Position numbers and translations under genes: made by a program. A stretch of DNA of 64,000 bases from Pontederia crassipes (taxonomy: Eukaryota; Streptophyta; Magnoliopsida; Commelinales; Pontederiaceae): positions 24,432,874 to 24,496,873 of the forward strand of contig CM060195.1 in the NCBI GenBank assembly GCA_030549335.1, in the 5' to 3' direction. The notes under the pieces are model-generated. The model saw nothing but the letters and a program-made list of their open reading frames with translations. It searched no databases and was not told where the DNA came from. Positions 11,261 through 55,891 of this stretch are shown here, piece by piece; position 1 is the stretch's first letter, and every line of letters begins with the position of its first letter.

Positions 11261-11274
11261 AACTCCCCCAAGCT
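11261..11274 (-). other. Polypurine tract of element A
   Basis: The minus strand reads GCTTGGGGGAGTT directly before the LTR start TGATCACTAGCTGATCA. The identical arrangement recurs in element B at 47253-47266. Confidence 0.85.
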
Positions 11275-12131
11275 TAGTCTTTTGCTTGTCCTCAAGCAAA
11301 ACATTCAGATATTAAGAACAAGATTGAATCAAATAGTTCACAAATGAATTCAGATTCAGCTCTTTAAAATGAAATGAGTTTTCCACTTTACTAACACTCC
11401 CTATCATTCTTTTCAATTTCTAATTTCTAGTTGAGGAATCACAGAGGCTAAAGCAAATTTAAACCATGAAAGAAGTACTAACAACAACTGATTTAAATTT
11501 TAGGGATTTTCAAACTTTACTAAAAAGGTTAAACTACCAATCTCTTGATGAACAGATTTTTGTATTGCTTAAACAGGTTTGAAACTAGACTTTTATTCAT
11601 GATGATGCAAATAAACAGGTTTAAACCTAATTTTTATTCATGCTGGTCAACAGGATAAAAATCCTAGCTTTATTCAGGAGAGTTTCCTTTTTGGATTTAA
11701 CTCTCTTTATTCATGCATGCATGTAATGCAAAATGCAACTTTTCATTTTCTCATTTTCTTCATTTTTTTTCTGTTCATGAAGTGAGCAACAGTTCAAACT
11801 CAAGTAAAGTTTAAATTCCTTAATACAAAGAGTCAAGTTTTCCTATTTAACATAGCCGCAAAAGCCTTGATTCCATTCTAGATATCTTTTAATTTCTAAC
11901 CAACTCATGAGTGTCAACTAGTGTTACCCACAAAAAGGAAAATTTCAGCTGAATTGAAATCAAATGCATCTGAATATGAACTGGTTGAAGCAAAAAGATC
12001 AACAACCAAACTAGTGATTACTTAGTGTTGGAGTGTACTAGATGTTATACTAAAGGATTTCTACTTAACAATGATGAGTACAAATGATAACATGACTTGA
12101 GTTGAACTACAATGATAACAGCGATAACATG

Positions 12132-12200
12132 GCTTATCATCAGCACTGTCCTCAGTACCAAGTTCCTCTCCAAAGCTTATCATCAGCACTGTCCTCAGTG
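12132..12200. repeat. Short direct repeat in element A 3' region
   Basis: The phrase CATCAGCACTGTCCTCAGT occurs twice, 45 bases apart. A relative of it is found once in element B (48263) and in element E (60469), so it is a conserved part of the 3' untranslated region of this retrotransposon group. Confidence 0.75.
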
Positions 12201-12781
12201 ACGAATCATCCAAGCAAGGGAGAGAGTTGGGTGGGTGCTCAACTTTTGAAATCAGAGGTAGGCATGTTTTGCTTCACTTCTTCTTTGGGTCTACCATTTC
12301 AGAGTATGATGAATCAAACCTACAATTGATTGGAACTGAATTAATGAGGAATGATTCATTTAGCAATCAATAAAATTCAGTAAGTATTATTCACTGAAAT
12401 TTGACTAAATCAGATATAAACAACTTATATGAACAAGAAATCACAGTTATCATTATGATGATCATAACATGAGCTAAGTAAGGATAATTAAGATAATCAA
12501 TTATCAAATGCATTTCAGTGAAAAATCAAAGATATGAGTCAAGAGTACTCCTTAAGCTGAATTTAATTCAGTGGTAGAAGATGTTCCTCTCTTATTCCTG
12601 CCAAAACAAAAGGATATTAGATGTAAAAGGCTTGTGTTGCCTCTCAAGAAGCGCCCTACTTTAATGTCTTAGGCTAGACATTGTTACAACTCTTGATGTC
12701 AAAGAGGTTTAAATAGTATGATGTGATAAAGTAGAGATCTCAATCTGTAAACAACTTCACTAATCAAGTATGGATCTCTTA

Positions 12782-13086
12782 GAGGCTGATTGGCTAAGCT
12801 TATAAGTCACTTATAAGTTAGTTTAAAAAAATCTCAGCGTTTGGTAAGTTAAAATTTTGACTGATAAGGAGATATCAAATCTACTTATAAGTAAAAAAAA
12901 TAAGCAGGGAGAGGGGTGCTTATTTTTTAAAAAAATAAGTCAGTTATTGTCTCACAACTAACTAATTGTTATTAATATAAGTAGTTTTATCCAAACGTGT
13001 AACTGCTTATTTTTAAAAATAAGTTTCAGCCAATAAAATACTTATCAGCACTTCAACTTATCAGTTATTTTGTATCAGCTAAGCCC
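12782..13086. mobile_element. Tourist-like (PIF/Harbinger) MITE, TSD TTA
   Basis: The 305-bp element has inverted ends (GAGGCTGATTGGCTAAG at left; GGGCTTAGCTGAT as the inverted right end) and sits between TTA at 12779-12781 and TTA at 13087-13089, the target preference of PIF/Harbinger elements. It is AT-rich, repeats CTTATAAGT-type motifs on both arms, and has no ORF. It lies inside element A and is therefore younger than that insertion. Confidence 0.7.
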
Positions 13087-13356
13087 TTAATTTGCCAATG
13101 ATTGACCTTTATTTTTCAGTTGGATATATTCCGCCTTCATTGTATCAGAAATCTACTAACTTCTCATTCCTAAAATCCTCATGTATGACATCTGAATCCC
13201 CTGGGTCACCATCTTGTTTAAGCAACTATTTCTTTAATGGCTTCTTTAAATGCAGCATCGTTGGAAGATCTTTGAGCTCTTGGTCCCAACTTTTAGTAGG
13301 TAAATATTGATCTTCCTTAATTGGATGTTCGATTTCTTCTACAAATTTGAATTCTG

Positions 13357-13830
13357 CTATAACTTCCTTTGTTTGGAAAGAATTTTTTCTACTTTTGTAT
13401 CCTCCTTGGCCATTTCAGTCTCATCATGCGACTTTGCTGTAATAACTTGTTTCCTTATGAGTGGGTCTTCAATGTGATTCATTGCTACTATCATTGGAGT
13501 ACCCTTTTCAGTAACTTCTGCAACTTCATGAGTGGCTTGTGCTTTAAGTGTGACAACTTCCATCTCAACCTCAGCCTCCATGAGCAATTCTTTCTCTTCA
13601 TTTATTTCTCTCTCAATCTCCATCATCATTTCCTGAAATTCTTCTTTCACATGGGCAGATTGGATTTGTGGAGTTTCTGAATTGGACTGCGAACAAAGTT
13701 TAGCCACCAAGACTTGATTTTTAGCTACAACCTTACATAGTTTCTCCATAATTGCATCTTGCTTCTCCATTATTGCATCTTGCTTCCTGATGAATTTCTC
13801 TAACTTAATCTCCAGTTTTGAATCTTCCAT
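13357..13830 (-). pseudogene. Gag-derived coiled-coil ORF of element A
   Basis: This 157-codon frame encodes a lysine/glutamate-rich, probably coiled-coil protein with an internal repeat (KQDAIMEKQDAIMEK). Its position, just downstream of the PBS side of element A, and its resemblance to the gag C-terminal coiled coil of element B (KVEEMLQKILKKQANQDEAI) suggest a gag remnant. No zinc knuckle, protease or RT follows. Whether it is expressed cannot be told from sequence. Confidence 0.45.
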
Positions 13831-13865
13831 GGATTGATTAAGTGTTTGTTAATTTTCTGAAATAT

Positions 13866-14063
13866 TCATGGTTGTAACATGAAAATCTGACACTTGACCT
13901 TGATTGTGATGGTAATACAAATGATTTTGTGAGTCGTAAACATAAGGGCTGCTGCTTGAGAAGTCTTCCTCACGATTCCAATAATTTGAAACATAATGAC
14001 TACTACTTGAGAAGTCTTCCTCACAATCTTAGTAATTTGAACCTTCATGATCATGTGAGGCAT
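13866..14063 (-). pseudogene. Degenerate gag-like segment with internal duplication
   Basis: On the minus strand, in the frame of the downstream coiled-coil ORF, a motif EEDFSSSS followed by YV appears twice about 54 bases apart. YYHHNQGQ follows, like the HQNQGQ seen in the gag of element E. Stops break the frame. I read it as gag remnant. Confidence 0.4.
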
Positions 14064-14606
14064 ACATGTGGGGATTAGAAGATGCCGAAATTGTGATGAT
14101 CCTTGATTGCAATGAACTTGTGATGGTTCTCCGACATAAAAAATGTATTTCTAAAGTGTTTTGAACATGATATCTTCAACTTTAGAATTCAATTCATTCT
14201 GGTTGATTGGCATTTCACTAGATTGATAATAGTCCTAGGGCCAAGTTTTTCAACTCATATCCATCATGTACTTAATCTATCTCAGAAATTAAATTTAGAA
14301 TTTTTTGCACTATAAACTTGTCATACAATGAGATTAAGTGCAAAGATATCAAAAGTAGGAGTAAACATGAAATGGAACAATGATTAAGATAAGATTGATA
14401 GTAGAAAAAAGAAAATTACAAAAAGGACTAATCTAATCAGAAAAAAATAGACAAAAATAGGATTGAATATAAACAATGGAATGTGATATCAATAGTGATG
14501 GTATAAGAAAAAATAGAGGTAAATATAAACAAAAGCTAAACTAAAGAAAAGAAACTGAAAAGTAGACTAATCTAAACTATAAAAAGTGAATCTAATCAGC
14601 CTCAAA

Positions 14607-14624
14607 TCCCCGGCAACGGCGCCA
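14607..14624 (-). other. Primer-binding site, tRNA-Asp
   Basis: The plus strand reads TCCCCGGCAACGGCGCCA, identical to the 3' end of plant tRNA-Asp, so the minus-strand transcript is complementary to that tRNA over 18 bases. It lies 6 bases from the LTR edge, as expected. It is not a tRNA gene. Confidence 0.92.
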
Positions 14625-21960: not shown

Positions 21961-21996
21961 TAGTGTACAATCAGATCCACAACTAGTGCTAATGCT

Positions 21997-22365
21997 CTTG
22001 GTTTATCTCTAAACAGTAAGAGAATCTAAAATCAACCTCTCGGCTGCCATTTCAATACGAGATTCACATCAACAAAAGCTAAATGGATCCATTCTCAGCA
22101 TGAAAAGATTAGAATCAAGAAACCAAGTCTACAGAAATCACAATTGAAATCGATCTAGAAACTAATGTTAATGTTCTTGATTCATTGCTTAATAACAAGA
22201 GAATCTAGAATCAACCTCTCAGCTGCCATTACAAAATGATATTAACATTAATAAAAAGTAAAAAGATACATTCAGTTCTTGACAAGGAAAAAACCATAAA
22301 ACAAATTATGATGCTCTTGACTCATTTCTGAGCAAGAAAGAATCAAACACCAACTTCTCAATTGT
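21997..22365 (-). repeat. LTR A hairpin subrepeats, three copies
   Basis: Three units each contain a first hairpin with a TCTC/TTTC loop on the plus strand (GAGA/GAAA in sense): GTTTA/TAAAC at 22001-22014 and CTCA/TGAG at 22321-22332; the middle copy is weaker. A second hairpin follows with loop TCTC: CAACC/GGCTG at 22033-22046, CAACC/AGCTG at 22212-22225, CAACT/AATTG at 22351-22364. On the minus (sense) strand every non-Watson-Crick pair in these second stems is G-U. They lie between the TATA-like box and the PBS, so they should be in the transcript leader. Confidence 0.7.
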
Positions 22366-22682
22366 CACTCTAAAGTAGGATTCACATCAACATAGAACTG
22401 AGTTGAAAACATTCAGAAATACACTAACATCAGTGGCAAAAGTGATGTTCTATCATCCATCCATAAACAAAAATTAAACTGCTATCCTATCCTAAGAGAG
22501 CTAAGATTTAGCTCCTCATAAGTGATGAAAATAATAGAAAACAGATGAGGAAAAGAATCATAAACATCCTAAAACATAAAAGAAGAACAATCAACACTCT
22601 GGACTCTAGCAAGAAAAACCCTCTGCCTCCAGCCCAAATGGCCAGGAGAGAAGATCCCCATCTTTGCTCCTGAACATCCCCT

Positions 22683-22690
22683 TTAAATAT
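22683..22690 (-). promoter_or_regulatory. TATA-like box of LTR A
   Basis: TATTTAAA on the minus strand aligns in position with TATAAAAG of the solo LTR at 28061 and TATACAAG of LTR B. It is preceded by the same CACC/CACCCTTTGAT-type context. Confidence 0.5.
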
Positions 22691-23180
22691 GGGATTATCA
22701 TCACCCTTTGATTATCATTAGAACCTTCCATTTCATCTGATTTTGCCACCTGTCTCTGGTCCTCTTTTTGCTTTTGTGCTAACAAGAGATTCCTTTCTCA
22801 TTGCTTTTGGCAGCTGCCTGTGGTCCCCTCCTACTTTTCCAACAGGATTCTTTATCTTTTCTCCTTGATTTTGATCCTGTAACATTATGAACAGCAAGCA
22901 TCAAACTCTCCAAATGAAAACTAGATAAATAAAAACTAAATCAATATATTATCCAGCTCAAATGTGCAAACGTAGGATAATATTATGCTGAGAAGATAAA
23001 TGCATGTATATTAAGCATAATTTGATAAATATGAACATTTCAGGACTTTTATGCACATGAATTAAGATGGAAAATGAGTAGAAATTTAGTATGATCAGCT
23101 AGTGATCAAATGACAATAAATGTGGATCCAATGAAAATTCTTATATAAATCAAAATGTCAAAATTAAGGATAACAACAGG

Positions 23181-25289: not shown

Positions 25290-25786
25290 ACTGGTCTAAC
25301 TAGAGCTTGTCTGACTGAAGCTTTAGCTTTACACTCAGCCTGATCTCTTTTCATGCGTGTAACCAATCTTACTGCCTGATCCAGATCATGGCAATCTTTT
25401 GATAGGATTGGGGCTCCTGCACCTTGGTTCCCTCACCCTTCTCTTCAGTGCTTTTGTTGTAGATTGTCTACAAATTTGTTGGCCCATGGTTCTCGATAAT
25501 GGGCAATTTTGCTCCAGTAGGATGAATTGGGTGTGATAATCAGCCATACACATGGATCCTTACTGTAGGAAATTCTGGATGCATTCATGCTCGGGTGTAT
25601 AGCGAACCTGAAATGCCTTTTGAAACTCAGCCCAAGGAATATCATCCTTTTCCTGGCCCCTAAACTTGGAGGCTCGCATGGTCTTCTACCAGTCCATTGT
25701 AATCTCAATAAACATATGTGTAGCATACAAGACCTTACACCCATCAGTGCAGCTCATGAGTTTGAAGATGCGCTCCATCATGTCCA
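25290..25786 (-). pseudogene. Gag of Tekay-like element G, second part
   Basis: On the minus strand, beginning at the edge of the solo LTR, the frame reads DMMERIFKLMSCTDGCKV, YATHMFIEI, then a stop after MDW, and PWAEFQKAFQVRYTPEHE. This is the central gag of chromoviruses (family pattern: W...I-E-K-I-F, C-T-D, K-V, A-T-H-M-L, W-W, W..F...F). Several stops and decay beyond about 25290 end it. The first part of the same gag is on the other side of the inserted LTR at 29106-29454. Confidence 0.75.
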
Positions 25787-26458
25787 TGATAGTGATATTT
25801 GGGTTTTCTAGTGATAACTTGCTAAAATTTAAGAAAATGTCAATTTTTCATTTTTTGGTCTCCCAACTCACTAGCTGCAAGTGCACAGGTAAGTTGTAGT
25901 AGACTCAGGTTGTCGTATCCATAAGAATTTGAAGTCTAAAACACCCTAAAACAATCTAGATTAGTTCTACTTAAGTGGCTAAAAATATATTTTTAATGAA
26001 TAGTGAAAACATATTTTTTTATAGAAAGTGAAATGATAACTGGTTTTTGGGTTTTGGAAATTTATCAAAATTGAATTATAAATGCTAGAATGAAGTCTAA
26101 AAAGGTTTAACTATCTATGAGGAAGGTTCTTCTAGGATTTGGGGTTCATCTAAATTAATTAAGGATGGAATGGAATAAGTTATCACTAAATGTCCAACTT
26201 TTTATTCAACTTGAAAATAGCTGTTCTCACAGCTCAATTGGCTTCTAACTAAGCAATATATGATTATATAATTGTTAGCTAGGTTGAATCAAAAGAGGAT
26301 CCTCACTGAAAATCAAGTTATCATTGGGCTCAAAAGAAAGTTCAATGCTGATTTTTTGCAATTCAAGGAAGTTTGGAATGATAACTTGCATTTGCAATCA
26401 TAAAAAGATGGAATCATTCCAATCAACCAAACCAGGATAAAATATACTCAATAATGGT

Positions 26459-27720
26459 GCTTGTGTTCCATGATTCATCTCTGAATTCAAGGGAGATTCA
26501 AAATCAACCTCTCGGTTGCAAAGTAAATTGAAATCCACACAAACACACTCAATTGGAAATGCAAAACATATGGTCACATGAGTTCACAATTTCCATTGCT
26601 CCTTGGCCAATCTCTGGATCTCAAGGAAGCCCTTAAGACTACCTCTCAGTAGTGGATTAATATGAGGGTTGACAATGCAAATCAGAAGTTAGAAAAATGA
26701 GAAAACAGAAATCAACATTTCAGGAAAATCAGCAATGTGAATTGATGGAATTCAAGTTTGTCAAATGCCCCTTGACCCATCTCTGGACTGCAAGGGATTC
26801 CTAGAGTACACCTCTCAGTAATTTGAATAAAATAGGGATTAACAATTGGCAAATCAGATTCCAAACAATCAGAAAATAGAATTTAGAATCAAACTAAGAA
26901 TTAGATTTTGGAAAAATCAGATTTGAATTCTGAATTGTCAAAGATCTTGATTCATTTCTGAATAAGATCAGGGCATATATTAGCCTCTCAACTATTCAAT
27001 TAATCCAATCATTGATGACAATCAGATCCAAAAGCCCAGAAAATCAGATTTTGGAATTCAGGAAACCAAAAAATCAGCAACTCATTCAAATCAGGAAAAA
27101 CCAAATCAGAGTTGAATCATGGGAATGTCAAAGCTTCTCAATTCATTTCTGAACAAGATTGGGATAGATGTTAACCTCTGAGTTGTTCAATTAATTCAAT
27201 CCCCAATGACAATCAGATTTAAACAGCCCAGGAAAATCAGAAATCAGATTGTTCAAAAATTAGGAAACAGAAAATCAGCAACAATTACAAATTAGAACCT
27301 TAGGAATGTCATTGCATCTTGATCATTTCTGAACTAGAATGGAACCATAAGATAACTTCTCAGTTGTCAAAACAATTGTGGCTCCACAATGACAAAACAG
27401 ATTCTAAGAATTCAGAAATAAGGAAGGCATTCAGAATTCAGATTTCAAAAAGTAGAAATCAGTGGAAAATCTGGTTTGAGTCAAATGATTGCCCAAACAA
27501 TCTTGATTCATTTCTGAACAAGATAGGGACAATACCAACATCCCAAAGACTCAATTAATCAGGTTGAGAGTGACAAACAGATTCTGCAGTTCAGGAAATC
27601 AGATTCAGAAAAAACAGGAAATCATATTTTCAGGAAACCAAATTCAGAAATCAGATTTGCAACTAAATGGAATCCAGAAATCTGACTTTATCTCTTAATG
27701 CATTCTGAAGGGTGATTAGA
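26459..27720 (-). repeat. Hairpin subrepeat array in solo LTR, about eight copies
   Basis: Units of about 140-200 bp start near 26459, 26600, 26768, 26943, 27131, 27316, 27497 and 27690. The first hairpin has outer arms that change together (CCTTG/CAAGG at 26601, CCCTTG/CAAGGG at 26769, GATCTT/AAGATC at 26943, ATCTT/AAGAT at 27500) and inner arms TTCA/TGAA or CCA/TGG. The second hairpin has arms CAACC/GGTTG (26505-26518), CTACC/AGTAG (26639-26652), TAGCC/AACTA (26981-26994) and ATAACT/AGTTGT (27352-27367). Loops are TCTC/TTTC on plus, that is GAGA/GAAA in the sense transcript. The last copy is weak. Confidence 0.7.
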
Positions 27721-28060
27721 TCAAATAACACATCTCAATCATGGTTTACAATGGATCTAATGATAACATGAATCAGTGCAGAAAAGTTCTAAAATCTGAA
27801 AACCAGAATTGATTTCAGTGCAGGATTACAAATCAGTCCATATCCATCCAAAACTAATCTAAACTACTACCCTATCCTAGAAGAAATGGAGTTTAGCTCC
27901 TCATAATTACAAGATTTGACATCAAATGGGATAAGAAACAGATACAATTCATGGCTGCTTGAAGCTTCTCGGCCAGCAGCAGCAATCCAGCAGCAACCTC
28001 CTTGCTTGCCTTCAAACCCTTGAATGACCAGCCCCCCCTCTTCCTCCAGAAAAATCCAGC

Positions 28061-28067
28061 TTTTATA
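28061..28067 (-). promoter_or_regulatory. TATA box of the solo LTR
   Basis: TATAAAA on the minus strand, with the hairpin array downstream and the TGATAACTT motif cluster upstream. This divides the LTR into U3 and R-U5. Confidence 0.65.
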
Positions 28068-28384
28068 TCACTCCTTTTCACCCTTTGATCAGCATCTAAA
28101 TGTTCTAATCCTCCTGATTAAGCCACCTGTCCATCTGCAAAAATTCTAGCAGTGACAGCTTTTTGGACAGCCAAAAAGCTAGTGGTCCCCCCTCCTTTTT
28201 CTTCCTTTTAGCCACCTTTTCTTCTTGCTACAAAAATCCAAACAGCAAGCATCAAAGCTCTTGAATTGTATTTTGACAAATAAGGATTAGGATAATGCTG
28301 ATAACTAGTTCAAATATCAGATGGGATTGAGTGTTGTGCAAGAATAAAAACTTATATCGATATGAATGAATTCAAGGGCCCGGA

Positions 28385-28905
28385 ATGATAACTTTATGGA
28401 AATTTTGGAAAATGTCCTAATATGGGTGGTTCAAAACATTTCAGGCATCAAATTGATTAGAGTGACAAGTGAGAGAGGTCAGAAATCAAATATGAATGAG
28501 ATTCCTAAAAGTGATAACTTGAGTGCCCCAAAAATGATAACTTATATGACTTAAAAATGATAACTTGTGATAACTTGAGTTTTGATTATCCAAATGTGAT
28601 GAAATTTGACCAGCAATGAGTTAAAACAATAATAAGATGATTGCTTAAGGTCCTTGTGCAGAATTAATGGTTTTGCATGTCAAAATGACAGAATTGCCCT
28701 TTAACGATAACTTGGCACTTGAAAAATGATAACTTGTTCAAATGGACTTAAAACTTTGCACAAGTTGAGATGTAACTATCCAAATATGATTTATACATGA
28801 TAATGATGGATTTAGGGCAAGAAAACCATTGAAAATAAATTCATTCAAAATAATGATAACTTGCACTTAGGAATGATAACTTGTCCTCAAAATGATAACT
28901 TGGCA
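28385..28905 (-). repeat. TGATAACTTG motif cluster in U3
   Basis: About ten copies of (A)ATGATAACTT(G) occur, all in the same orientation, irregularly spaced from 20 to 140 bases and upstream of the TATA box. In sense the motif reads CAAGTTATCA. A similar cluster of about eleven is in solo LTR B (44155-44695). Confidence 0.85.
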
Positions 28906-29105
28906 TAGAATTTAAATATTAATGGATTTTGGCATTTCAGAACCTCTATGCACATGGAATTAAGTATGAAATGAGGAATATCAACTAGTTATCACAATGT
29001 TTGCATTCCAAGTATAATTGGCCCAAAAATAGGCAAAAGTGAGACTCGATATGTATGAATTGCATCTAAAATGGGTTAAATCATATAGTGATCAGCAAGT
29101 GATCA

Positions 29106-29454
29106 GTCCATCCATCATTTTGCCTTGAAGAAATCTTCTTTGCCATCATACTTCATAGATGTAACTTCTAGAAAGTCTGGATAGTATCGTGCCTCATGTC
29201 ATGCGCTCTTTGAGCATTACATCGTGGCGGTGGCTGGCCCCAGTCTGACTACCCTTGAGTGGGGCAGACTCATCAAAGTACTCCTCCTGTGACTAAGCTC
29301 TCGCACCACGGCCTCGACCACGACCACATCGATGGCCTCGCTGTGCCAATGTCTGAGACTTATCGAGCGGGCCTCCTAGATCCCCTTGTGCGTTAGGAGC
29401 TATCTGGGCAGATCTGGCTTCTTGCTCCTGAATCCTCTCTGATCGTTTAGACAT
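29106..29454 (-). pseudogene. Gag of Tekay-like element G, first part
   Basis: The minus-strand ATG at 29454 opens MSKRSERIQEQEARSAQ and continues to an arginine-glycine run (GHRCGRGRGRGARA), followed by a stop. The same frame goes on with SQEEYFDESAPLKG and stops again. It lies 170 bases downstream of the PBS, the expected place for gag. The solo LTR insertion separates it from 25290-25786. Confidence 0.7.
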
Positions 29455-39928: not shown

Positions 39929-42900
39929 ATCTTCTCAAGGTATTTATGTAGCTAGGGAGCTCTGCATAACTGTAAAATTTTGTATAATTGCTGTTCCTTT
40001 TTGTCATGTTTGCTAAGTTTAAATTTAGTTTCATGGAAGTAAATTATATATTGAACAAATAAAAAATTATCTTCATATTCCAAAAATATCAGGTTGGCCA
40101 GAATTAAAGAATATCCTTGACTTTAGTCGTCAACTTGTGTGAGAGGGACAACAAATTAAGATATTATCATATTGTACTTGTATTCTCTTTCAAGGACATT
40201 CATCATTCTATCAAAAATTCATGAAGTCAAAGAAAAATACATGGAAGTACCAAATGAGACTCTTAAAAGTGAGGGAATTGTTAGTGGAATCAGAGGTTGA
40301 TTTTGTTAGCATGCTAGTGCATGCATGGCAGTTTAATTTTTTGTTCTTGTTGTTCTTGCTATCTAATGTGAATTTGGCAAATGCACTTCTCATATGTCTT
40401 GAAATTTAGATATTGAACAAACACATATTTATGGGCTTTGGTTAATGTATCCCAAGTATAGTTCTACAAATGAAGAAGGCGTGCACATTTAAACATATCT
40501 TGAATGTAGAGAAAGAACATTCAAGTTTTGCAATCAAAGTAATAGTCTCATTTATAATCAAATTGATTTTGTATTTTACTGACAATACCATTTTTGTAAA
40601 TATTAATTGATTGTATGAGTGGAAATATGTATCAAATACTAGTTTTAGTTCTAAATTTAGAGCATATTAGTTTTATTTTTCACAAACAACAGTTAATACT
40701 CATTTTTAAAACACAATATATACTTAGATATTGGTAAAGTGATAATTGTGAAGTAATAGATAGGTAGAACAGAAGAACATAGAGAAGGTAAAGGAGGGAG
40801 ATATATTAATAAGGGAACATATATTGAAAAACACAATATAATTCCATTTTATTAGTGATAAAAAAATGATGGCCTAAAGATTAAGATCTAAGAGGTTCAT
40901 AGAAGATTCCTTATTATAAGTTTTCTTGAAGAAAGCATTTAGGATCAATGACACATAATAAATGAGAAAACATGAAATATAGTTCAAACTAGAACACAAT
41001 AACAAATAAGTATGAAATATCAAATGCTAGAATTATTCTTTCAACAAAATCACTCGAGTGAAATCAGAAGGAAAAAGAACAATGGATCTCAAAAAATGGG
41101 AAAGTGAAATAATCAATTTATATAAAGTCCTACACATGGTATTTCTCCTCGGTTGAGTAATTTGATCTAAAGGGGAAAGAGAAGAGAATAGCTTTTTTAG
41201 GTATAATCATAGATTCTACATGAATGTGTTCCAAATCAATTCATGCGAAATCAAACCCAAATGTTAAATTGGAACTAAAACTTACAATCGGAATGCCTTA
41301 TCTGTTTGATCTTCGACTCAGACAAGTCGTTCTTCCACTGGAGTTGTACTATGACCTCAAGAAGATTTCGGCGAGAATGCCAATGCGAACAATGCTATGT
41401 ATGTACTTCAAAAGGGTTCTCGGTATATATAAGTGAAGAAGATAAATCTTTCCAATGAAACCCTCTAATAGTTGAATTAGGAAAGAACCAAGACAACACA
41501 TAGAATTTAATTAATTCAATTTAATGCACTGACACGCCCGTTATACTGCAAATGAATTAAAAGCAACGAGGTTCATGCACTTGTTAAAGAAAATTAAAGT
41601 AATCATCATTAGGTAAGATTTTTCTATTGGGAGTCTCGCCAGTTATAGCGATACGTGCGGCCCGACACAATACAAATTAGTCGAAATAATAGTATTTTGG
41701 ATTTCTATTTTATTATTTGAAATAATAGTCAACGTTAGGTAGTAATTATTATTTTTGTTTTGAGAAAGCTTTTTTATTTGCATCATTAAATATCATTGTT
41801 TCTATGTCAATAAATGATATCTTATTTATTATACCTCAAAGTGATAAAAATTAAAGAAGGTTGATTGAACAATTTATGCATTTTAATTCCTCAAATAATA
41901 TTCCCTAATTAGTTTTGGTTTCCTTAACTTAAGCATGTGTATTGATTTATGGTCATTTCAACATTTCCTACATTTATATGATTGATTGGAAATTTGGCTA
42001 TGAATTCAATATTTCGGATCAATTATATTTTTACAAATTCAATTTTTCTACTTTTTTAGAATAGGAATCACATAATATAGTTTCAATCCTAATAATTCCC
42101 GGCCCATAACTTGTCACAAATTATTCAAAATTTATTAGATGCTCAATGAAATAAGAAAACAATCGAAATATCAAAATCGAATAGGGCTTCTATATTCAAG
42201 CCAATTGCTAACATGGTGACACATATAAATAGTAGCAAAATATTTTCTAGTGCAGTATAGAAAGGAACCAAATGAGAGGGGAGGGGGAGGAGAGGAGAGG
42301 TGATAGTGATGTTAAGGGGTGTAGTGATAACTTGCTGATTTTGAGGTCAAATTTCAGATTTTTCAATTTTTGATTTAACTCCCTAATTTACTCTCTACTG
42401 CAAGTATACAGGTCAATTGTAGTCTATCCAAATGTCGTATCCTCAGTGATTTGAAGTCAAAAACTCCCTAAAAATAATTTAGACTAGTCCTACTTAAAGT
42501 GACAAAAACAGGAAAATAAGGGAAGTGAAAATAGATTTTTAATTTTGACAAAAAAGATAACTATTTTTGGATTTTTGAAAAGTTATCTAAACTGAATTAT
42601 AAATGATAAACTAGAGGCTAAAAGGGTTTAACTATCAATGAGGAAGGTTCTCCTAGGAGTTAGGGTTCATCTAATTTAATTATGGATGGAATGGAACAAG
42701 TTATCAATTTTTAGTCAATTTTAACTCAACTTGAAATAATCTGTTCTCACAGCACAATAAAATCAGAACTAATTATCATATTTTCATATGATTGATTAGC
42801 CAAGTTGAATTAGAAGAGGTCCTTATTGAAATCAAGTTAACATTGAGCTCAAAATCAAGTTCCTTGCTGAATTTTAGAAACTTAGTGAAATCTGAAATGT

Positions 42901-42984
42901 TAACAATCAAATACACTTTAGAAATGAGGGAAATGTTTCAATTAACTGAACAAGAATGAAATCAATCTAATATTAGTGCAAATG

Positions 42985-43526
42985 CTCCTTGGTTTATCTC
43001 TAAACTACAAGAGGATTTTAAATCAGCCTCTCAGCTGCAAATTAAAATGAAACCCACATTTTCACTAATGAGTTGGATGAAATTAGCACATAATTGCATA
43101 AGCAAACTCAGCGCATTCATTGGAACTTAGCACCTACCAAATACTTCTTGGTCCATCTCTGGACAACAAGAAATCCTTAAGATTCACCTCTCAGTGATTA
43201 AACGAAATCAGGGATTCAATTGGCAAAACAGATTCCAAGGAAATCAGGAAATCAGATTTCAATTTATACTCAATATCATATTTGAAATCAGAAAAGTGTC
43301 ATTGATTCTTGATTCATTTCTGAACAAGATTAAAATCATAAACCTTTCAGTTGTTAATTAAATCAGGATTTCAGACAATGACAACAGATTCCAATAACAG
43401 TTCAGGAATGCAGATTTAGAAATCAGATTTGGAAAAACAGATTCCAGAAAATAATAAATCAGACTTGGCATTGATTCTTAATTCATTTTTTAACAAGATT
43501 ATATCAAAAGACAACTTCTCAGTTGT
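42985..43526 (-). repeat. Hairpin subrepeats in solo LTR B, four copies
   Basis: First hairpins: GTTTA/TAAAC (42992-43005); GTCCA/TGGAC with outer TTCTTG/CAAGAA (43145-43172); TTCA/TGAA (near 43312). Second hairpins: CAGCC/AGCTG (43024-43037), TCACC/AGTGA (43184-43197), AACC/AGTT with loop TTTC (near 43342), and a perfect ACAACT/AGTTGT (43511-43526). Loops read GAGA or GAAA in sense. C-A mismatches on plus are G-U pairs in sense. Confidence 0.72.
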
Positions 43527-43855
43527 AAATACAAATAGGACCTTGCAATGACAAGAAGAGATTCATATCAATACAAATTTCAGAAATTAAAATTGAAATT
43601 AGTGCAGGAAATCAGACTTGTCCCTAATCCATCCACAATTAATCTATACTACTACCCTATCCTAGGAGACATGAAATTTAGCTCCTCATGATTACAAAGA
43701 TTAACACATAACAGATTGAAAAGCTAATACAAATCATCCTGGATTGAGGAGTTGTTGACAGAAATTGCAGCAGCAGCCTTGAGCTCCAAACCCTTGCTTC
43801 CTGCCCAAAACCCTGCAATGGCCTCTCCTCCTCTTTCCTCCAGAATTTTCAGCTT

Positions 43856-43862
43856 GTATATG
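43856..43862 (-). promoter_or_regulatory. TATA-like box of LTR B
   Basis: CATATAC on the minus strand aligns with TATAAAA of the other solo LTR, in the same context 40-50 bases from the CCTCCTC run. Confidence 0.45.
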
Positions 43863-44154
43863 TGTCATGTGCACCCTTTGATCCACATCAGAATGTTCTA
43901 CTCTCTGATTTCAGCCATCTGTCCAATGGTCTTGAAGATTTCAGCTGACTGCAGCAGCTTTTGGACAGCAAAATAGTGGTCCCCCCACCTTTTCCAGCTT
44001 TTTGCAACTTTGTTTTCCCTGCTAGAAGAGATAGAACACCAAACATCAAAGTCCTTGAATGGGATTTTAACAGATAAGAATTAAGAATATGATAAATATC
44101 AGCTCAAACAGCAAATAGGATTTGGTGTTGTGCAGGAATGAAAAATAAAATCAG

Positions 44155-44695
44155 AAATGATAACTTATAAGACCCGAAATGATAACTTGCACCATATCAT
44201 GAAAGTTGTCCAATTATGGGTGGTTTAAAGCATTGAAGGCATCAAAGGAATTATGGTGACAGATGAACGAGGTCAGAAATCAAATGTGCATAAGATTTCA
44301 TAGGGATGATAACTTGGGTGCCAAAAATGATAATTTGATGCCATAAAAATGATAACTTGTGATATGTTTATTTGTGGTTATCCAAATATGATAAAATCAA
44401 AGCAGCAAGGAGTTAGGACAATAATATAATGATTGCCTAATGTTTTCATGCAGAATTGATAGCCTTGCATGTCGAAATGACAGTTTTGCCCTAAAATGAT
44501 AACTTGACACTCAAAAATGATAACCTATGAAATGGGGTGATAACTTTGCATAAGTTGAAATATGATCATCCAAATATGAATAATTCATGATGGCAGAAGA
44601 TTTAGGACAAAAAAGTCACTAGAAATCGGCTAAACTAGAAAAATGATAACTTGGCACATTGGAGTGATAACTTGTCCAAAAAATGATAACTTGGC
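44155..44695 (-). repeat. TGATAACTTG motif cluster in U3 of LTR B
   Basis: About eleven copies, some with one change (TGATAATTTG, TGATAACCTA), share one orientation upstream of the TATA-like box. Confidence 0.85.
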
Positions 44696-44885
44696 ATAGA
44701 ATTGAGATATTTATGGATTTTAGCATTTCAAAGCCTCTATGCACATGGAATTAAGTATAAAATGAGAAAGACCAACTAGTTAACATATTCCATACATTCC
44801 AAGCATATTTAGCCCAAAGTTAGGCAAAATAAGGGCTCGATATGGGTGAATGGGATAAAAACCTATTGTGATCAGCTAGTGATCA

Positions 44886-46340: not shown

Positions 46341-46342
46341 TG
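45881..46342 (+). pseudogene. Transposase_24-like (En/Spm TNPA) fragment
   Basis: Exon-like blocks separated by AT-rich introns read NAEKWKK...RYGRIVKAQGSVRF, then GGVSYRDVHKEMHTSKKTKEF and AKFDAEVWYEVVRLTSI. Their order and the W-Y-E-V-V motif resemble Transposase_24 proteins. It is a different lineage from the copies at 19687 and 32518. The last two blocks are repeated at 56388-56645. Confidence 0.5.
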
Positions 46343-47124: not shown

Positions 47125-47252
47125 TAAATTTAAGTTATCACAATCCATTGCATTCTAGGCATAATTGGCAAAAAGTTAGGCAAAATAAGGGCTCGATATG
47201 GGTGAAATGAATCTAAATGGGATAAAAACCTATTGTGATCAGCTAGTGATCA
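47125..47252 (-). repeat. Truncated 3' LTR of Athila element B
   Basis: Only the first 128 bases (sense) of the LTR remain, ending on plus with GATCAGCTAGTGATCA next to the polypurine tract. The rest is replaced by the tandem units of LTR E, marking a recombination junction. Confidence 0.88.
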
Positions 47253-48775: not shown

Positions 48776-49036
48776 TCAGCTAGGCAAATTTGGCAAATCT
48801 TGCAAATTCAACACCTCCTTAGCTGAATCCAGAGCTGTGGGGTTGTAAAGCTTCAACCTCTGTCCATTAACCTTGAATATATCATCCGTATCATTCACAA
48901 GATCCACAACTCCAAAAGGATAAACTTTGTAAACTTTGAAGGGTTCACTCCACCTTGATTTCAACTTTCCAGGAAACAACTTGGGCCTTGAATTGTACAA
49001 CAACACAAGGTCTCCAACCATGAATTCTTTCTTCAA
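48776..49036 (-). pseudogene. Integrase C-terminal module of element B
   Basis: [34 protein letters not shown] and VNGQRLKLYNP form the Athila integrase C-terminal DNA-binding module (family: [21 protein letters not shown]). A frameshift separates it from the core upstream. Confidence 0.9.
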
Positions 49037-49964
49037 AATTCTGTCGTCATGCCACCTTTTGTTCTCTCCTTGTAAAATTCAGAGTTATGATAGGCATTGA
49101 GCCTAATCTCATCTAGTTCATCAAGTTGCAAGAGCCTCTTTTGTCCACAAGCCTTCAAGTTATAATTCAAGACTTTAACTGCCCAATAGGCCTTATGTTT
49201 CAACTCAATAGGTAGGTGGCAGGTTTTCCCATAGACAAGTTTGTAGGGGGAGACATCAATTGGGGACTTGTAGACTGTCCTGTATGCCCAAAGTGCCTCA
49301 TTTATCTTCAAACTCCAATCTTTTCTGGTCAAAGAAACAGTTTTCTCTAGAATGGCTTTTATCTCCCTATTTGAGATCTCTGCTTGGCCATTAGTCCGAG
49401 GGTGGTAGGCAGTTGAGACCTTATACTTAACTCCATACTTGTTTAGGAGGTTCTCAAAGCATTTTTCAATGAAATGGCTCCCTCCATCACTTATGACTAC
49501 CCTTGGGATTCCAAATCTTGGGAAGATTATCTCCTTGAACAATTTAATGACAACCCTGAAATCAGCAGCTATAGTTGGAATTGCTTCTATCCATTTAGAT
49601 ACATAGTCCACAGCCAACAATATAAACTTGAATCCACATGAACTAGGAAATGGGCCCATGTAGTCAATGCCCCATACATCAAATATCTCCACCTCCAGAA
49701 TTCCTTGTTGTGGCATTTCATTTTTTCTTGAGATAGAGCCTGCTCTTTGACATTCATCACAACTTTTTACAAACATATGGGCATCTCTGAATAATCTAGG
49801 CCAATAGAAGTCGGATTGAAGGATTTTTGCTGCTGTCTTCTAAGTGGCACCATGTCCACCATATGGAGATGAATGGCAAGCCTACAAGATGTCCTGAAAT
49901 ACTGATTGTGGTACACACCTCCTATACATGCCATCAGGGGATTTTCTGAACAATAGGGGGTCAT
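49033..49964 (-). pseudogene. Integrase core of element B
   Basis: The zinc-binding end is frameshifted (49964-49767). The C-x2-C pair is in CDECQRAG. The core has D in [13 protein letters not shown] in [10 protein letters not shown] and E in [15 protein letters not shown], so the catalytic triad is intact. Typical Athila text continues with [18 protein letters not shown] and [18 protein letters not shown]. The protein would insert element cDNA. The frame ends at 49033, where the C-terminal module continues in another frame. Confidence 0.93.
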
Positions 49965-50007
49965 CCCAATAATAATTCTTTAAATCATGGAAAAACTTTT
50001 TTTTCTG

Positions 50008-50238
50008 TTAATAAGTGTAATCAGGAGGAACAATCCCACATGCCAGGTAATTCACAATGTCTGCATACCAGGGAATTGGATTAGCTGATATTGTCATCAA
50101 GAAGTCATCAGGAAAGGAATCATTGATAGGAAGTATTGAAGATTCTTGGACTCCCTCCATCCTGGAAAGATGATCAGCAACTAAGTTTTCACTACCTCTT
50201 TTGTCCCTGAATTCTACATCAAACTCTTGCAACAACAA
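50008..50238 (-). pseudogene. RNase H tail of element B
   Basis: [20 protein letters not shown] and ADHLSRMEG are the end of RNase H and the start of the spacer to integrase. The frame is shifted by one relative to the RT-RNase H ORF, which runs out at about 50240. A stop at 50008 is followed by frameshifted integrase N-terminal text. Confidence 0.88.
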
Positions 50239-51641
50239 GATCCAATGATGAGCCTTGGCTTTGATTTCTTCTTGCTAATTAAGTGCCTAACAGCCTGATG
50301 ATCAGTATAGACAATCACCTTTGCTCCAATTAAGTAAGATCTAAACTTGTCAAATGCAAATACAACAACTAGTAGCTTCTTCTCAGTTGTGGCATAGTTG
50401 ACTTGAGTTTCATCTAAAGTCTTGTTGGCATAACATATGACATAGTGCTTCCTATCTTTTGTCTGTCCCAACACTGTCCCTACTGCTTGATCAGAGGCAT
50501 CACACATAATCTCAAAGGGTAGGGTCCAATCAGGTGGCTGTACTATAGGAGCTGAGATGAGAGTCTGCTTCAAGTGATTAAAGGCCTTTAAGCATTTCTC
50601 ATCAAATTTGAATTCCATATCTTTTGCTAGCAATCTGGTAAGAGGCCTGGTTATCATTAAAAAGTTCTGAATGAATCTCTTGTAGAAACCTGCATGCCCC
50701 AAAAAGCTCCTTACTGCCTTCACATTTGTTGGTGGTGGTAACTTCTCAATTACTTCAATTTTGGCCTTATCCATTTCAATTCCTTTACTTGAGACAACAT
50801 GTCCTAGGACAACCCCTTCTTGAACCATAAAATGGCACTTCTCCCAATTTAGAATTAAATTAGACTCCCTACATCTTTGTAGAACCTTTGTCAAATTCTC
50901 TAGACAAGCTTCAAATGAGTCCCCATAGACTGAAAAATCATCCATAAACACCTCCATAATATCCTCAATGAAGTCTGAGAAAATTGACAACATGCACCTC
51001 TGAAATGTGGCAGGGGCATTGCACAATCCAAATGGCATCCTCCTATAAGCAAATGTCCCATATGCACAAGTGAAAGTAGTCTTGTGTTGGTCCTGTGGAT
51101 GGATTGGGATTTGAAGGAATCTTGAATAGCCATCTAGATAATAGAAGTGGGAGTGCTTTGCCAACCTTTCTAACATTTGGTCAATAAAAGGAAGAGGAAA
51201 ATGGTCTTTCCTTGTCGCTTTGTTTAATTTCCTAAAGTCAATACACATCCTCCATCTTGTAACTGTCCTGCTGGATATCAATTCATTTGAACCAGATTTG
51301 ACTATTGTGATTCCTCCCTTCTTTGGCACTACCTGCACAGGGCTGACCCATTCACTATCTGAAATGGAATATATAATTCTAGCATTCAGTAACTTCAACA
51401 CTTCCTTTTTGACAACTTCTTTCATTACTTGGTTGAGTCTTCTTTGGCATTCAATGGCGGGCTTATAGTTGTCCTCCATAGGGATCTTGTGCATACAAAT
51501 TGAGGGATTAATACCTTTAATATCTTCAATAGAATAGCCTATTACCTCCCTGTACAGCTTTAGTCTTTTCAGCAACTTTTCACCTTGATCTTTAGGCAAG
51601 TTGGCATTGATGATAACAGGAAATGTTGAATTCTCTCCCAA
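50214..51641 (-). pseudogene. Reverse transcriptase-RNase H of element B
   Basis: A 475-codon open stretch carries [18 protein letters not shown]-like [51 protein letters not shown], the catalytic FMDD at residues 232-235 (about 50937-50948), and [16 protein letters not shown]. RNase H follows: [35 protein letters not shown] and [11 protein letters not shown]. All key acidic residues are present. The last codons (SCCCKSLM) are out of frame. The start methionine is internal to the polyprotein; the protein would be produced by proteolysis. Confidence 0.95.
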
Positions 51642-51733
51642 GAATTCATATTTCAGGTTGCTAAGGAGAGGCTTGAGCTCAATTTGGAGGAATTATCTTG
51701 AGCTGAATTAGGTTGGAGCTCAGCAGTGATAAC

Positions 51734-52714
51734 TTACAGCACTTCATTCTGATTTTCTGAATTTCCCACTGGTTGGGGTGAATTCATCACTAATTGATAG
51801 GCTTTGGCCTCTGGATCCTCTAATTCCCTCAAATGATGAAACATGATGTATCTCTGCAGTGAATCTTCAATGGGTATTATTGCTGAGGCTTGCTCCACAA
51901 CTTGATCAATTTGTCCATCTCTAAAATCATCCTGTTGACAAGTTGGCCTACTGATAACTTGTGCCAGGTCAAACTCTATCTTATCTTGTCCAATTTGGAA
52001 GGTCAATCTCCCCTCTTTGACATCTATGATAGCCCGAGCAGTAGTTAGAAAGGGCCTCCCAAGCAAGATAGGTGTATTCAAATCCTCATCCATATCCAAC
52101 ACCACAAAATCCACAGGGATGTAAAACTTCTCCACCTTTAAGGGTATGTCTTCAATGATTCCATGGGGGTATTTAATAGACCTATCAGCCAACAGTAGAG
52201 ACATGTTGGTAGGCTTCATGTCTCCCACCTCCAGCTTCCTGCATAGAGACAATGGTATCACACTTACATATGCACCCAGGTCACACATGGCTCTTTGGAT
52301 TTTCCTATTTCCTATCTCACATGGAATTAGGAAGCTCCCTGGATCTTTTAGCTTAGGAGGTATCTTGTTTTGGATTATTGCAGAAGCCTCCTCAGTTAAT
52401 GCAATGGTTTCATATTCCACAATCCTCCTATTCTTGGTCAAGATTTCCTTAAGAAATTTTGCATATGAAGGCATCTCTTTAATGGATTCAACAAATGGTA
52501 CATTGATGTACAACTTCTTCAAGATTTCTAGAAACTTTCCATATTGCTTATCTTGTCTGACCTTGACTAATCTTTGAGGAAAAGGCACCTTATCAAAGAC
52601 TCTGGCCCTGATTTCATTTTGAAGTCCCTTGTTCTGACTTCTCACTGTAGCCTCTTCAGTTGCCTTTTCAATAGGTTCTGAGCAGGGGGTTTCTTGAGCT
52701 GGGTTGCCTTCCAC
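51734..52714 (-). pseudogene. Protease region of element B polyprotein
   Basis: FPQRLVKVRQDKQYGKFLEI and YAKFLKEILTKNRR are the conserved pre-protease region of Athila elements. The aspartic protease motif is CDLGAYVSVIPLSL (family: C-D-L-G-A-S-I-N-L-M-P), so the usual D-T/S-G is D-L-G as normal for this lineage. ILLGRPFLTTARAIIDV and GRLTFQIG follow. The same frame as the upstream gag piece continues with one stop between (at 52733-52735). Confidence 0.9.
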
Positions 52715-52735
52715 ATTCTTAGAATTTGGATTCTC

Positions 52736-54214
52736 CTAAACTGGATTGTCCTTAATATTTTTCACTGGTTCTTCAATAATCCTTCCACTCTTGAGTTGAA
52801 TGGATTGGGCCTGTTCTTTAGGGTTCATTTCTGGTTGTCTAGGAAAGAATATAGGTGGCCTAGATGAGGTGCTAAGCTGCTGAGCAAATTGGTTCTCAAT
52901 AGTATCAAGTCTAGAATTAATTTTCAATATTGCCTCGTCCTGATTGGCCTGCTTCTTCAGAATTTTCTGCAGCATCTCCTCCACTTTTGAGAATTGAGAA
53001 GGTTGAACTTGTGGTGGCTCATATGGAGGTCTCTGCATTGGAGCATTAGGTGACTGATATGACAGTGGTTGATTCCTTGGCAAGATTTTGGGTTGCCAGT
53101 TGGAATTTTGCATGGGTGGGGCTTGGTAATGATTTGCCTTGTATGATAGGTAGGGGTAGTTCCTATTCTCTGGAGTATAGAATTCAGCAGGGGGTTTCAT
53201 TCCAAAGTTTTCACAGCATTCACTGAATCAATGGACTGTTCATATTGCTGCATAATCAGATTGCAACTTTCTGTGGTATGACCTTGATTACCACACACAT
53301 CACACCTAGATTCAGGGGTGGAAGCCTTGCTGACATTAGAAGTTAGGTTCAGCTTCTCCAGGGTTTTATACAGCACTTCTTCAAATTGAGATGATATATT
53401 GTTCACTGAATTTTCAATAGGTGGCCTCCTTGTCCTATCATGAGTGAGAAAGTGATGGTTCTTGGCAATATTCTCTATCAATTGGTAGGCTTCATCAATA
53501 TTCTTTGATGCAAAGATCCCTCCTGCAGTTGTATCCAATGCCACCTTGGATGGATAATTCAGGCCCTTATGAAAGTAATTGACTAACTGCCACTTCTCAA
53601 AATCATGATGTGGACACACCCTCAACAGCCCTTGGAGTCTCTGCCATGCATCACAAACATTCTCTTGGTCCAATTGGTAAAATCTGACTATTTGATCCCT
53701 GTAATTATCAATTTTGGAAGGAGGAAAAAATTCTGATAGAAACAATTGCACAATGGATTCCCAAGTGGCCACTTCTTCAGGTTTGAGAGTCTTATACCAG
53801 ATTTTGGCCTTGTCTTTGAGTGAAAAAAGGAATAGCCTCATGTAGACAGTATATAGGAGTATTATTAAAGTGCACTGTGTTGCATATCTCCTTAAAATTG
53901 TCCAAATGTGAAGCTGGATCCTCAATCCCTAATTCAGAAAATTGATACTGTCTTATCATAGTGACTAGTGCTGGGTTCACTTTAAAATTTGACACAGGTG
54001 CTAGGGCTCCATCTCCTGGTTGATTTCTGATATTGCTAGGTGAGTAGCAATCTTTTAATGTCCTTGGTGCAGCCATATTAACTTGCTCTTCTTCCTCTTC
54101 TTCAAAAATCATTCTTCTTGCCTCTAACCTTTGCAATCTTCTCCTTCTCAAGAATCTTCTTTCAGGTTCAGGATCTGATTGATAATGGTCCTCTTGATTG
54201 TCGAAATCCTGCAT
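52736..54214 (-). pseudogene. Gag of element B (frameshifted)
   Basis: From a probable ATG at 54214 (MQDFDNQEDHY) the protein has RTLKDCYSPSN and QYQFSELGIEDPASHLDNF, then shifts frame near 53830 and continues with LFLFSLKDKAKIWYKTL, FFPPSKIDNYRDQI, CPHHDFEKWQLVNYFHKGL and a CCHC zinc knuckle CDVCGNQGHTTESC. Another one-base shift near 53200 leads into a proline/glutamine-rich tail and a coiled coil (KVEEMLQKILKKQAN), ending with LKSGRIIEEP. Gag forms the particle and binds RNA. Two frameshifts disable it. Confidence 0.92.
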
Positions 54215-54376
54215 AAATGAATTCAGAAGTATCAAATTCAGAAAAGAAAGAAAACTAGACAAAATTGAAAAATTGGGAATGATAACTTGCAAAAACTGAA
54301 AATTAGCCTAAGTAATGGACTGGAAACTAGTCTAAAACTAATTTAAACTATCTAATTTAATCTAATTGACTTCAAA

Positions 54377-54394
54377 TCCCCGACAACGGCGCCA
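54377..54394 (-). other. Primer-binding site of element B, tRNA-Asp
   Basis: TCCCCGACAACGGCGCCA on plus differs by one base from the tRNA-Asp 3' end (and from element A). It lies 6 bases from the LTR start at 54401. Confidence 0.9.
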
Positions 54395-54400
54395 AAAACT

Positions 54401-55891
54401 TGATAGTGATATTAAGGGGTGTAGTGATAACTTGCTGATTTTGGGGTCAAATTTTTTATTTAACTCCCTAATTCACTCTCTACTACAAGTATATAGGTCA
54501 ATTGTAGTCTACCCAAATGTCGTATCCTCAGTGATTTGAAACCAAAGACTTCCTAAAAATAATTATGAAAATAGAAAATAAGACTAGTCCTACGTAAAGT
54601 GACAAAAATAGGAAAATAAGGGAAGTGAAAACAGATTTTTAATTTTGACAAAAAACATAACTATTTTTGGATTTTTGAAAAGTTATCTAAACTGAAGTAT
54701 AAAAAATAAACTAGAGGCTAAAAGGGTTTAACTATCAATGAGGAAGGTTCTCCTAAGAGTTGGGGTTCATCTAATTTAATTATGGATGGAATGGAACAAG
54801 TTATCAATTTTTAGTCAATTTTAACTCAATTTGAAATAATTTGTTCTCACAGCACAATAAAACCAGGACTATTATCATATTTTCATATGATTGATTAGCC
54901 AAGTTGAATTAGAAGAGGTCCTTACTGAAATCAAGTTAACATTAAGCTCAAAATCAAGTTCCTTACTGAATTTTCAAAACTTAGTGAAATCTGAAATGTT
55001 AACAATCAATTGCACTTTAGAAATGAGAAAAATGTTTCAATTAACTGAACAGGAATGACAACAATCCAATATTAGTGCAAATTCTCCTTGGTTTATCTCT
55101 AAACTACAAGAGGATTTTAAGTCAGCCTCTCGGTTGTAAATTAAAATAAAATTCACATTTTCACTAATGAATTGGATGAAATCAGCACATAATTGCATAA
55201 GCAAACTCAGCAATGTCATTCATTAGAACTCAGCACTTGCCAAATGCTTCTTGGTCCATCTCTAGACAACAAGAAATCCTTAAATTCACCTATCAGTGAT
55301 TAAACGAAATCAAGGATTCAATTGGCAAAACAGATTCCAAGGAAATCAGATTTCAATTTATACTCAATATCATATTTGAAATCAGAAAAGTGTCATTGCA
55401 TCTTGATTCATTTCTGAACAAGATTAAAACCATAAATCAACCTTTCAGTTGTTAATTAAATTAGGATTTTAGACAATGACAACAGATTCCAATAACAGTT
55501 CTGGAAATCAGAAATCAGGAATGCAGATTTAGAAATTAGATTTGAAAAAACAGATTCCAGAAAATAATAAATCATACTTGGCATTGATAAGGAATGATAA
55601 CTTGGCATAGAATTGAGATATTTATTAGACAAGAAAGTCACTAGAATCAGCTAAACTAGAAAAATGATAACTTGGCACATTGGAGTGATAACTTGTCCAA
55701 AAAATGATAACTTGCCATAGAATTGAGATATTTATGGATTTTAGCATTTCAGAACCTCTATAAACATGGAATTAAGTATAAAATGAGAAAGACCAACTAG
55801 TTATCATATTCCATACATTCCAAGCATATTTGGCCCAAAGTTAGGCAAAATAAGGGCTGGATAAAAACCTATTGTGATCAGCTAGTGATCA
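54401..55891 (-). repeat. 5' LTR of element B, internally deleted
   Basis: Starts and ends like solo LTR B but is only 1491 bp. About 1.1 kb (from 43470 to roughly 44600 in the solo LTR), which includes the fourth hairpin unit, the TATA region and most of the motif cluster, is missing near 55588. The right flank AAAGG matches AGAGG of the solo LTR with one change. Three hairpin subrepeats remain (55085-55460). Confidence 0.92.

Follow-up and report, generated by a model that had tools for sequence, protein, structure and literature searches.

Hairpin arrays and their carriers in the window

We analysed a window of 64 kb taken from the 1.13-Gb assembly, which a plant snoRNA match and protein relatives in named plants mark as that of a plant. 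Positions below are those of the window, and the LTRs, arrays, modules, TATA boxes and primer sites all lie on the minus strand. The reported hairpin array sits in a solo LTR (LTR1, 25787..29105), which was delimited by its ends, by a 5-bp target duplication (GTCCA at 25782-25786 and 29106-29110) and by alignment to the 5' LTR of another copy. No primer binding site (PBS) was seen at its edge. The dyads were present where the original prediction had placed them, and a sequence-only profile divided them into seven modules between 26458 and 27559. Module 1 (26458..26528) is nearest the LTR end; its hairpin B reads CAACC-GAGA-GGTTG, and its hairpin A has a GAGA loop and a disturbed outer stem. 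It is followed by modules 2 (26591..26660), 3 (26761..26831), 4 (26936..27004), 5 (27126..27195, with the B loop CAGA in the LTR1 copy) and 6 (27307..27376), and by module 7 (27494..27559), in which A is paired and B is broken (TCTTT-GGGA-TGTTG). At approximately 27676..27750, a candidate decayed eighth module was recognised by eye only and is absent from the profile list.

By the same profile, modules were present in all four of LTR1, LTR2, LTR3 and a fourth LTR fragment. LTR2 (42301..44885), likewise a solo LTR, is flanked by AGAGG (42296-42300 and 44886-44890), and its array A3 (42977..43535) contains four modules (42977-43047, 43138-43207, 43297-43363 and 43466-43535). LTR3 (54401..55891) is the shortened 5' LTR of an element that gave both gag and pol matches, and its array A4 (55076..55461) contains three (55076-55146, 55240-55309 and 55391-55461). 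Array A1 (21987..22374), also of three modules (21987-22056, 22166-22234 and 22310-22374), is carried by an LTR fragment of another family that starts at about 21969. The profile was built from 17 window modules, so that these window counts are of its own training modules.

The element behind LTR3 showed Pfam matches to gag, protease, RT-RNase H and integrase, in this order and in separate open stretches (49036..54307, minus strand). The protease match was weak (22.5 bits, under the cut-off of 24.3). The order protease, RT, RNase H, integrase is that of Ty3/gypsy elements, and the LTRs begin with TG and end with CA, have a short target duplication, and have a PBS and a polypurine tract (PPT) at the inner borders. 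The PBS (TGGCGCCGTTGTCGGGG in sense, 54378..54394) lies just inside LTR3 and presumably fits tRNA-Asp. Judged by these sequence features, the carrier is a plant Ty3/gypsy-type LTR retrotransposon. One CCHC zinc-knuckle motif follows the gag domain of this element, and such a motif was found in three of the four gag regions scanned. Rfam also gave a match to snoR71 at 53600-53706, which runs antisense to the gag region, on the plus strand; with 40.8 bits against a cut-off of 40, it is possibly due to chance.

Another element of the same kind (11263-14624, minus strand) has a primer site at 14608-14624 and a PPT near 11263-11269, about 3.3 kb apart. The profile listed no hairpin array near its PBS border at 14624, so that a related LTR can lack the array or have lost it.

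Several repeats were observed around these copies. LTR2 and LTR3 resemble each other at 95-96% in their right ends and the adjoining flanks (44606-47133 and 55628-57423), which indicates that part of the window has been duplicated; one copy of the duplicated stretch has a solo LTR, and the other has the 5' LTR of an element. An LTR-start piece lies behind a PPT at 47133-47253. A 393-bp unit is repeated in tandem at 56647-58240 (4.0 copies, 93% matches), with related copies at 46341-47133.

Module structure across the LTR families

In element sense, each module consists of hairpin B, about 20 nt, and hairpin A. Hairpin B has 5 bp and a loop of GAGA or similar. In hairpin A, a bulge lies between an inner stem of 4-5 bp and an outer stem, and the loop is GAGA or GAAA. 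The register of the outer stem depends on the loop type: A-8 pairs with A9 onwards in the GAGA type, and A-5 with A9 in the GAAA type. Standard pairs made up 81% and 80% in these two registers, against 33-68% in the other registers tried. Covariation of this outer stem within a type was not significant (P = 0.057 and 0.88).

We sampled the genome with four queries, which gave many copies, and 40 candidates were scored per query. The resulting family set comprised 94 fetched genome loci and the window, in which the profile found 468 modules in 98 arrays. There were three modules in 32 arrays, four in 31, five in 4, six in 1, seven in 19, eight in 10 and nine in 1. The module is common to three LTR families, in 3 to 9 copies per array. 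The spacing between the A and B loops was 30-33 nt in 462 of the 468 modules.

The loops had been predicted to be GNRA tetraloops in the sense strand, and this was borne out in 435 of 467 B loops and 436 of 467 A loops. Among the 109 modules under 93% identity, the figures were 97 and 98. The commonest loops were GAGA and GAAA, and the second base was almost always A or G; the loops are therefore narrower than GNRA in general. A profile-independent scan for two GNRA hairpins (at least 4 pairs per hairpin, 28-34 nt apart) gave nine matches in the minus strand, every one of them inside the arrays, and none in the plus strand of the window.

Conservation was compared in 28 four-module arrays. Identity was 0.892 in the hairpins and 0.811 in the spacers between modules, and 86% in the linker between B and A; gaps were about seven times as frequent in the inter-module spacers (0.112) as in the hairpins (0.015). 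The folding energy of single modules is not unusual for their composition (mean z only −0.78 in sense and −0.68 in antisense, strand difference P = 0.15). The sense fold had the lower energy in 85 of 109 modules, and the z-scores, which we had considered as strand evidence, favour neither strand. Against Rfam, the array region (26400-27800) gave no family at cut-off and 10 weak matches, none of which was a hammerhead.

Arrays were also found in elements with little coding content. Two elements have LTRs of which about 3.5 kb could be aligned within each pair, at 97.9% and 98.4%. In the internal regions of these two and of a third element, each about 3.5 kb long, only an N-terminal gag remnant was found; protease, RT and integrase gave no match with the gag and pol pieces of the window as queries. 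Their arrays, taken from one LTR each, contain 7, 8 and 8 modules. Pairs were kept at 93 of 115 positions in hairpin B and 108 of 115 in the inner stem of A, and GNRA loops occurred in 22 of the 23 B hairpins and in all 23 A hairpins. The third of these elements has a 523-codon open frame (L111:753-2321) that is rich in Glu, Ser and Leu and has no Pfam match. In a fourth element, coding matches are limited to gag and part of the protease.

Covariation and strand preference

The arms of the hairpins had been described as differing between copies and staying paired. We redealt the 3' arms among the 109 modules under 93% identity in 2000 shuffles. Watson-Crick pairs numbered 382 of 545 in hairpin B, against 309 ± 8 after shuffling, and 451 of 545 in the inner stem of A, against 379 ± 7. 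The observed pairing of B or A was matched in none of the 2000 shuffles, whether over all modules or within 75% identity clusters. Hairpin A was above the shuffles within 80% identity clusters too (0/2000); hairpin B showed no excess there (P = 0.15). As a control, the register was slid (300 shuffles each), and mostly no excess was found. The exceptions were +2 for both hairpins in some strata, +1 for A without stratification, and −2 for A in the 75% clusters; none of these came near the number of pairs in the true register.

The exchanges can be read at the level of single pairs (n = 109). In hairpin B, pair 3 is A-T in 60 modules, G-T in 20 and G-C in 19; pair 4 is A-T in 85, C-G in 13 and T-A in 1; and pair 5 is C-G in 59, T-A in 17, C-A in 14 and T-G in 9. 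In hairpin A, pair 2 is C-G in 63 and T-A in 33, pair 3 is T-A in 90 and C-G in 11, and pair 5 is G-T in 52, G-C in 40 and A-T in 13.

Double changes that keep a standard pair were counted on a tree of 186 modules. The 10 predicted pairs averaged 1.5 such changes each, as against 0.11 for 1701 other pairs of columns (Mann-Whitney, P = 2.5 × 10−15), and 15 of the 16 at predicted pairs went from one standard pair to another. The highest count, 4, was shared by A-2:A5 and A-12:A13, the latter belonging to the outer stem of the GAGA type, which had not been entered beforehand as a prediction. A ranking by APC-corrected mutual information was also tried on 35 modules and was too noisy to be used alone; the predicted pairs ranked 6, 10, 17, 37, 68 and 123, and the rest 343 or lower, among 1596 column pairs.

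By both shuffles and tree counts over many copies, the covariation is statistically strong, and the structure is well supported. The description of arms that stay paired needs a correction: not every hairpin is intact, as B of module 7 and, in module 1, the outer stem of A show.

Imperfect pairs had been expected to be G-U in sense and A-C on the other strand. Raw counts did not serve as a strand test, because shuffled pairs give a similar excess (in hairpin B, 21 G-U and 5 A-C observed, 25.7 and 9.0 shuffled); that excess is mostly due to base composition. Pair 5 of hairpin B, with C-A in 14 of 109 modules, has the wobble of the opposite strand. We followed single changes away from Watson-Crick pairs on trees of 109, 186 and 343 modules. 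On internal branches, changes to G-U in sense outnumbered those to A-C in the run of 186 modules (25.1 vs. 9.0, mean of 20 reconstructions, P = 0.009), as in those of 109 (21.5 vs. 8.0, P = 0.016) and 343 (32.5 vs. 13.2, P = 0.011). Within single families, the internal counts were 9.0 vs. 5.0, 6.5 vs. 2.0 and 9.4 vs. 4.8, the same lean in small numbers. Terminal branches showed no bias (43 vs. 36, P = 0.5, with 186 modules; 33 vs. 21, P = 0.13, with 109; 49 vs. 40, P = 0.40, with 343). The contrast between internal and terminal branches was not significant by itself at the three overlapping sampling levels (Fisher, P = 0.063, 0.34 and 0.066). Unpaired columns showed no skew on the internal branches of the 186-module tree, where the rates per 1000 were 38.5 for C→T plus A→G and 39.2 for G→A plus T→C.

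Internal branches hold changes that were copied onward, and on terminal branches most changes reflect decay of inserted copies. Read most simply, pairing in the sense RNA was protected while the elements spread, and not in dead copies. The strands thus differ in support on the internal branches; the internal/terminal contrast and the folding-energy difference were not significant, and we regard the evidence for the sense strand as moderate.

Probable leader position and possible function

The array had been predicted to lie between a TATA box and the PBS. In LTR1 a TATA box (GATATAAAAG in sense) was found at 28060..28069, upstream of the array; no PBS was seen at the edge of LTR1, which is a solo LTR, and the leader place of this array is deduced from related elements. 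TATA-like boxes also lie upstream of A1 (22681..22693, CCCATATTTAAAG in sense) and of A3 (43853..43862, CATATACAAG in sense, outside the strict motif). The TATA element and its conserved surroundings were present in most of 18 aligned 5' flanks and in all three LTR families. A strict motif, defined after this alignment had been viewed, was searched in 560-nt 5' flanks and occurred in 77 of 98, with a median distance of 324 nt to the first module; it occurred in none of the 98 3' flanks and inside two arrays. The loose motif TATAWAD was found in 83 of 98 5' flanks and 50 of 98 3' flanks, where most matches lie at one of two distances, with 30 at each. A second, downstream transcription start as in BARE may therefore exist. 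No shared place was found for AATAAA. With the TATA motif upstream and, in related elements, the PBS downstream, the array is probably part of the 5' leader of genomic RNA, as had been proposed.

Two further features were seen between and beyond these landmarks. A block between the TATA motif and the array (27860-27906, 43647-43693 and 22475-22521) recurs in similar form in the three LTR families, and its sense sequence (ATGAGGAGCTAAA...TAGGATAGG) may form another small hairpin. On the window's plus strand there are 30 copies of the nonamer TGATAACTT, against 5 of its reverse complement; of those 30, 22 lie in clusters at 28386-28893, 44158-44684 and 55595-55705, in the U3 part of the LTRs. 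These clusters are a second repeat set, which could be an enhancer.

The covariation, the strand bias on internal branches and the upstream TATA motif support the original prediction of a selected RNA structure, and we consider it very probable that the array is one, acting in the sense strand. Whether packaging or dimerisation is its main job is an evenly balanced question. An element that spreads without proteins of its own depends only on its cis signals, so that packaging, dimerisation, export or reverse transcription fits the gag-remnant copies better than Gag translation does. The mechanism we propose is that the array, presumably in the R/U5 part of the LTR, in the 5' leader of the genomic RNA of a plant Ty3/gypsy-type element, would expose paired purine GNRA loops as repeated docking sites for Gag with its one CCHC motif. 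RNA of both fuller and gag-deficient copies could then be picked up into virus-like particles, perhaps as a dimer, and tandem duplication of modules would raise avidity. Excerpts of one paper state that Moloney murine leukaemia virus (MoMuLV) nucleocapsid bound tightly only with all three stem-loops present, and that the GGAG loop of the HIV-1 Psi hairpin could be swapped for others with little effect on packaging (PMC7599994); both call for caution, the latter about loops as docking points. Taken whole, the reading of a leader RNA structure selected for replication in cis, probably through Gag recognition and packaging, falls just short of an even chance. The more specific form, in which a twin-GNRA module with sense covariation was multiplied in the LTR (3 to 9 copies) into a multivalent packaging or dimerisation signal shared by fuller elements and by the gag-deficient parasites of these, is offered tentatively.

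The same RNA evidence would serve a leader structure that binds host RNA-binding proteins for nuclear export or keeps genomic RNA from the translated pool, and gag-deficient copies would keep such a signal too. According to parts of a 2025 review, precedents exist in the structured leader of plant pararetroviruses, which recruits TREX parts, and in two mouse elements, with the RTE of IAP and the MTE of MusD (PMC12786077). The array gave no Rfam family at cut-off and nothing in our data prefers export to packaging, and we consider export unlikely as the main explanation. A structure for gag translation, one that takes ribosomes past the many upstream AUGs by shunting or internal entry, can draw on the presumed leaders of LTR1 (38 ATGs in 2234 nt, 41.1 expected from composition) and LTR2 (22 in 1525 nt, 29.0 expected), in which plain scanning should fail if the leader is unspliced. 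However, the array survives in three elements with only an N-terminal gag remnant, which weakens a role in Gag translation alone; the open frame in one of them leaves some room for a translation role, which we regard as quite improbable.

Dyads acting at the DNA level, as binding sites or enhancer-like LTR repeats with no RNA role, have a parallel in the repeated palindromes that plant LTRs can hold, such as the Sirevirus motifs (PMC2829016, in part), and many of our hairpins pair nearly equally on both strands, with strand evidence that is moderate. But the arms vary between modules with pairing kept, unlike a fixed binding site, the loops are GNRA in sense, internal branches favour G-U over A-C, and the array is downstream of the TATA motif; this explanation is distinctly improbable. 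The modules also resemble diverged duplicates whose number varies from 3 to 9, as expected if one ancestral module had been duplicated in tandem and spread by gene conversion, with no function for the pairing. Compensatory double changes at predicted pairs do not arise from inheritance alone, and such a by-product is very improbable indeed.

For the preferred packaging reading, known systems offer two models. By their titles as cited in PMC5086612, Konings (1992) and Yang and Temin (1994) reportedly describe a GACG hairpin pair, or double-hairpin encapsidation signal, in gammaretroviruses and spleen necrosis virus. The tandem hairpin SL-C/SL-D of these leaders, as outlined in excerpts of PMC7599994, likewise consists of two adjacent tetraloop hairpins, and a leader place is suggested for our array by the TATA motif and the PBS. 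In contrast, our loops are GAGA or GAAA and not GACG, our array lies in the LTR upstream of the PBS and not between the PBS and gag, it is repeated 3-9 times, and packaging is here only a proposal. This pair is the nearest functional model, and the array falls outside its family on loop sequence and PBS position. The nearest biological model, by analogy, is BARE2 of barley, a copia element without its own Gag which, according to excerpts of PMC3735527, is packaged and retains its signals for dimerisation and packaging. BARE1/BARE2 resembles our case as a gag-deficient plant element retaining cis signals; it differs in superfamily, and no tandem hairpin array was seen in those excerpts.

Other systems share single features. 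Purines in loops of the structured leader of mouse mammary tumour virus (MMTV) are bound by Pr77Gag, as we propose here for Gag, in a bifurcated stem-loop with a dimer site, and no array was seen in the excerpts of that paper (PMC8096270). The Sirevirus motifs are also repeated dyads in plant LTRs; in the excerpted text they lie upstream of the TATA box, have a CGG-CCG core but for one element, and are read as DNA sites (PMC2829016), whereas our array is downstream of the TATA motif and has varying arms. Retrozymes, according to excerpts of PMC4918200 and PMC9695139, carry hammerhead ribozymes in the LTRs of non-autonomous plant elements. Our array is likewise a probable RNA structure within LTRs, also in elements without their own pol; no hammerhead was found, and the sole Rfam match at cut-off in the window was the snoRNA.

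No description of such a hairpin array was found in the open-licence literature at the level of titles and abstract beginnings. Added to the original prediction are the solo-LTR copy, the strong covariation, the sense lean on internal branches, the sharing by three LTR families and the retention in gag-remnant elements. The split between internal and terminal branches also offers a simple way to search a repeat family of one genome for RNA structure under selection. LTR retrotransposons form much of many plant genomes, and little is known of how they select RNA for particles; the 2025 review, in the parts consulted, states that direct evidence on several plant RNA steps is lacking (PMC12786077). 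The array brings comparative support across several LTR families, clear modules and natural variants of 3-9 copies, with which packaging signals and parasitism by gag-deficient elements become directly testable. If the proposal is true, module number and loop type could set the competitiveness of each RNA for Gag.
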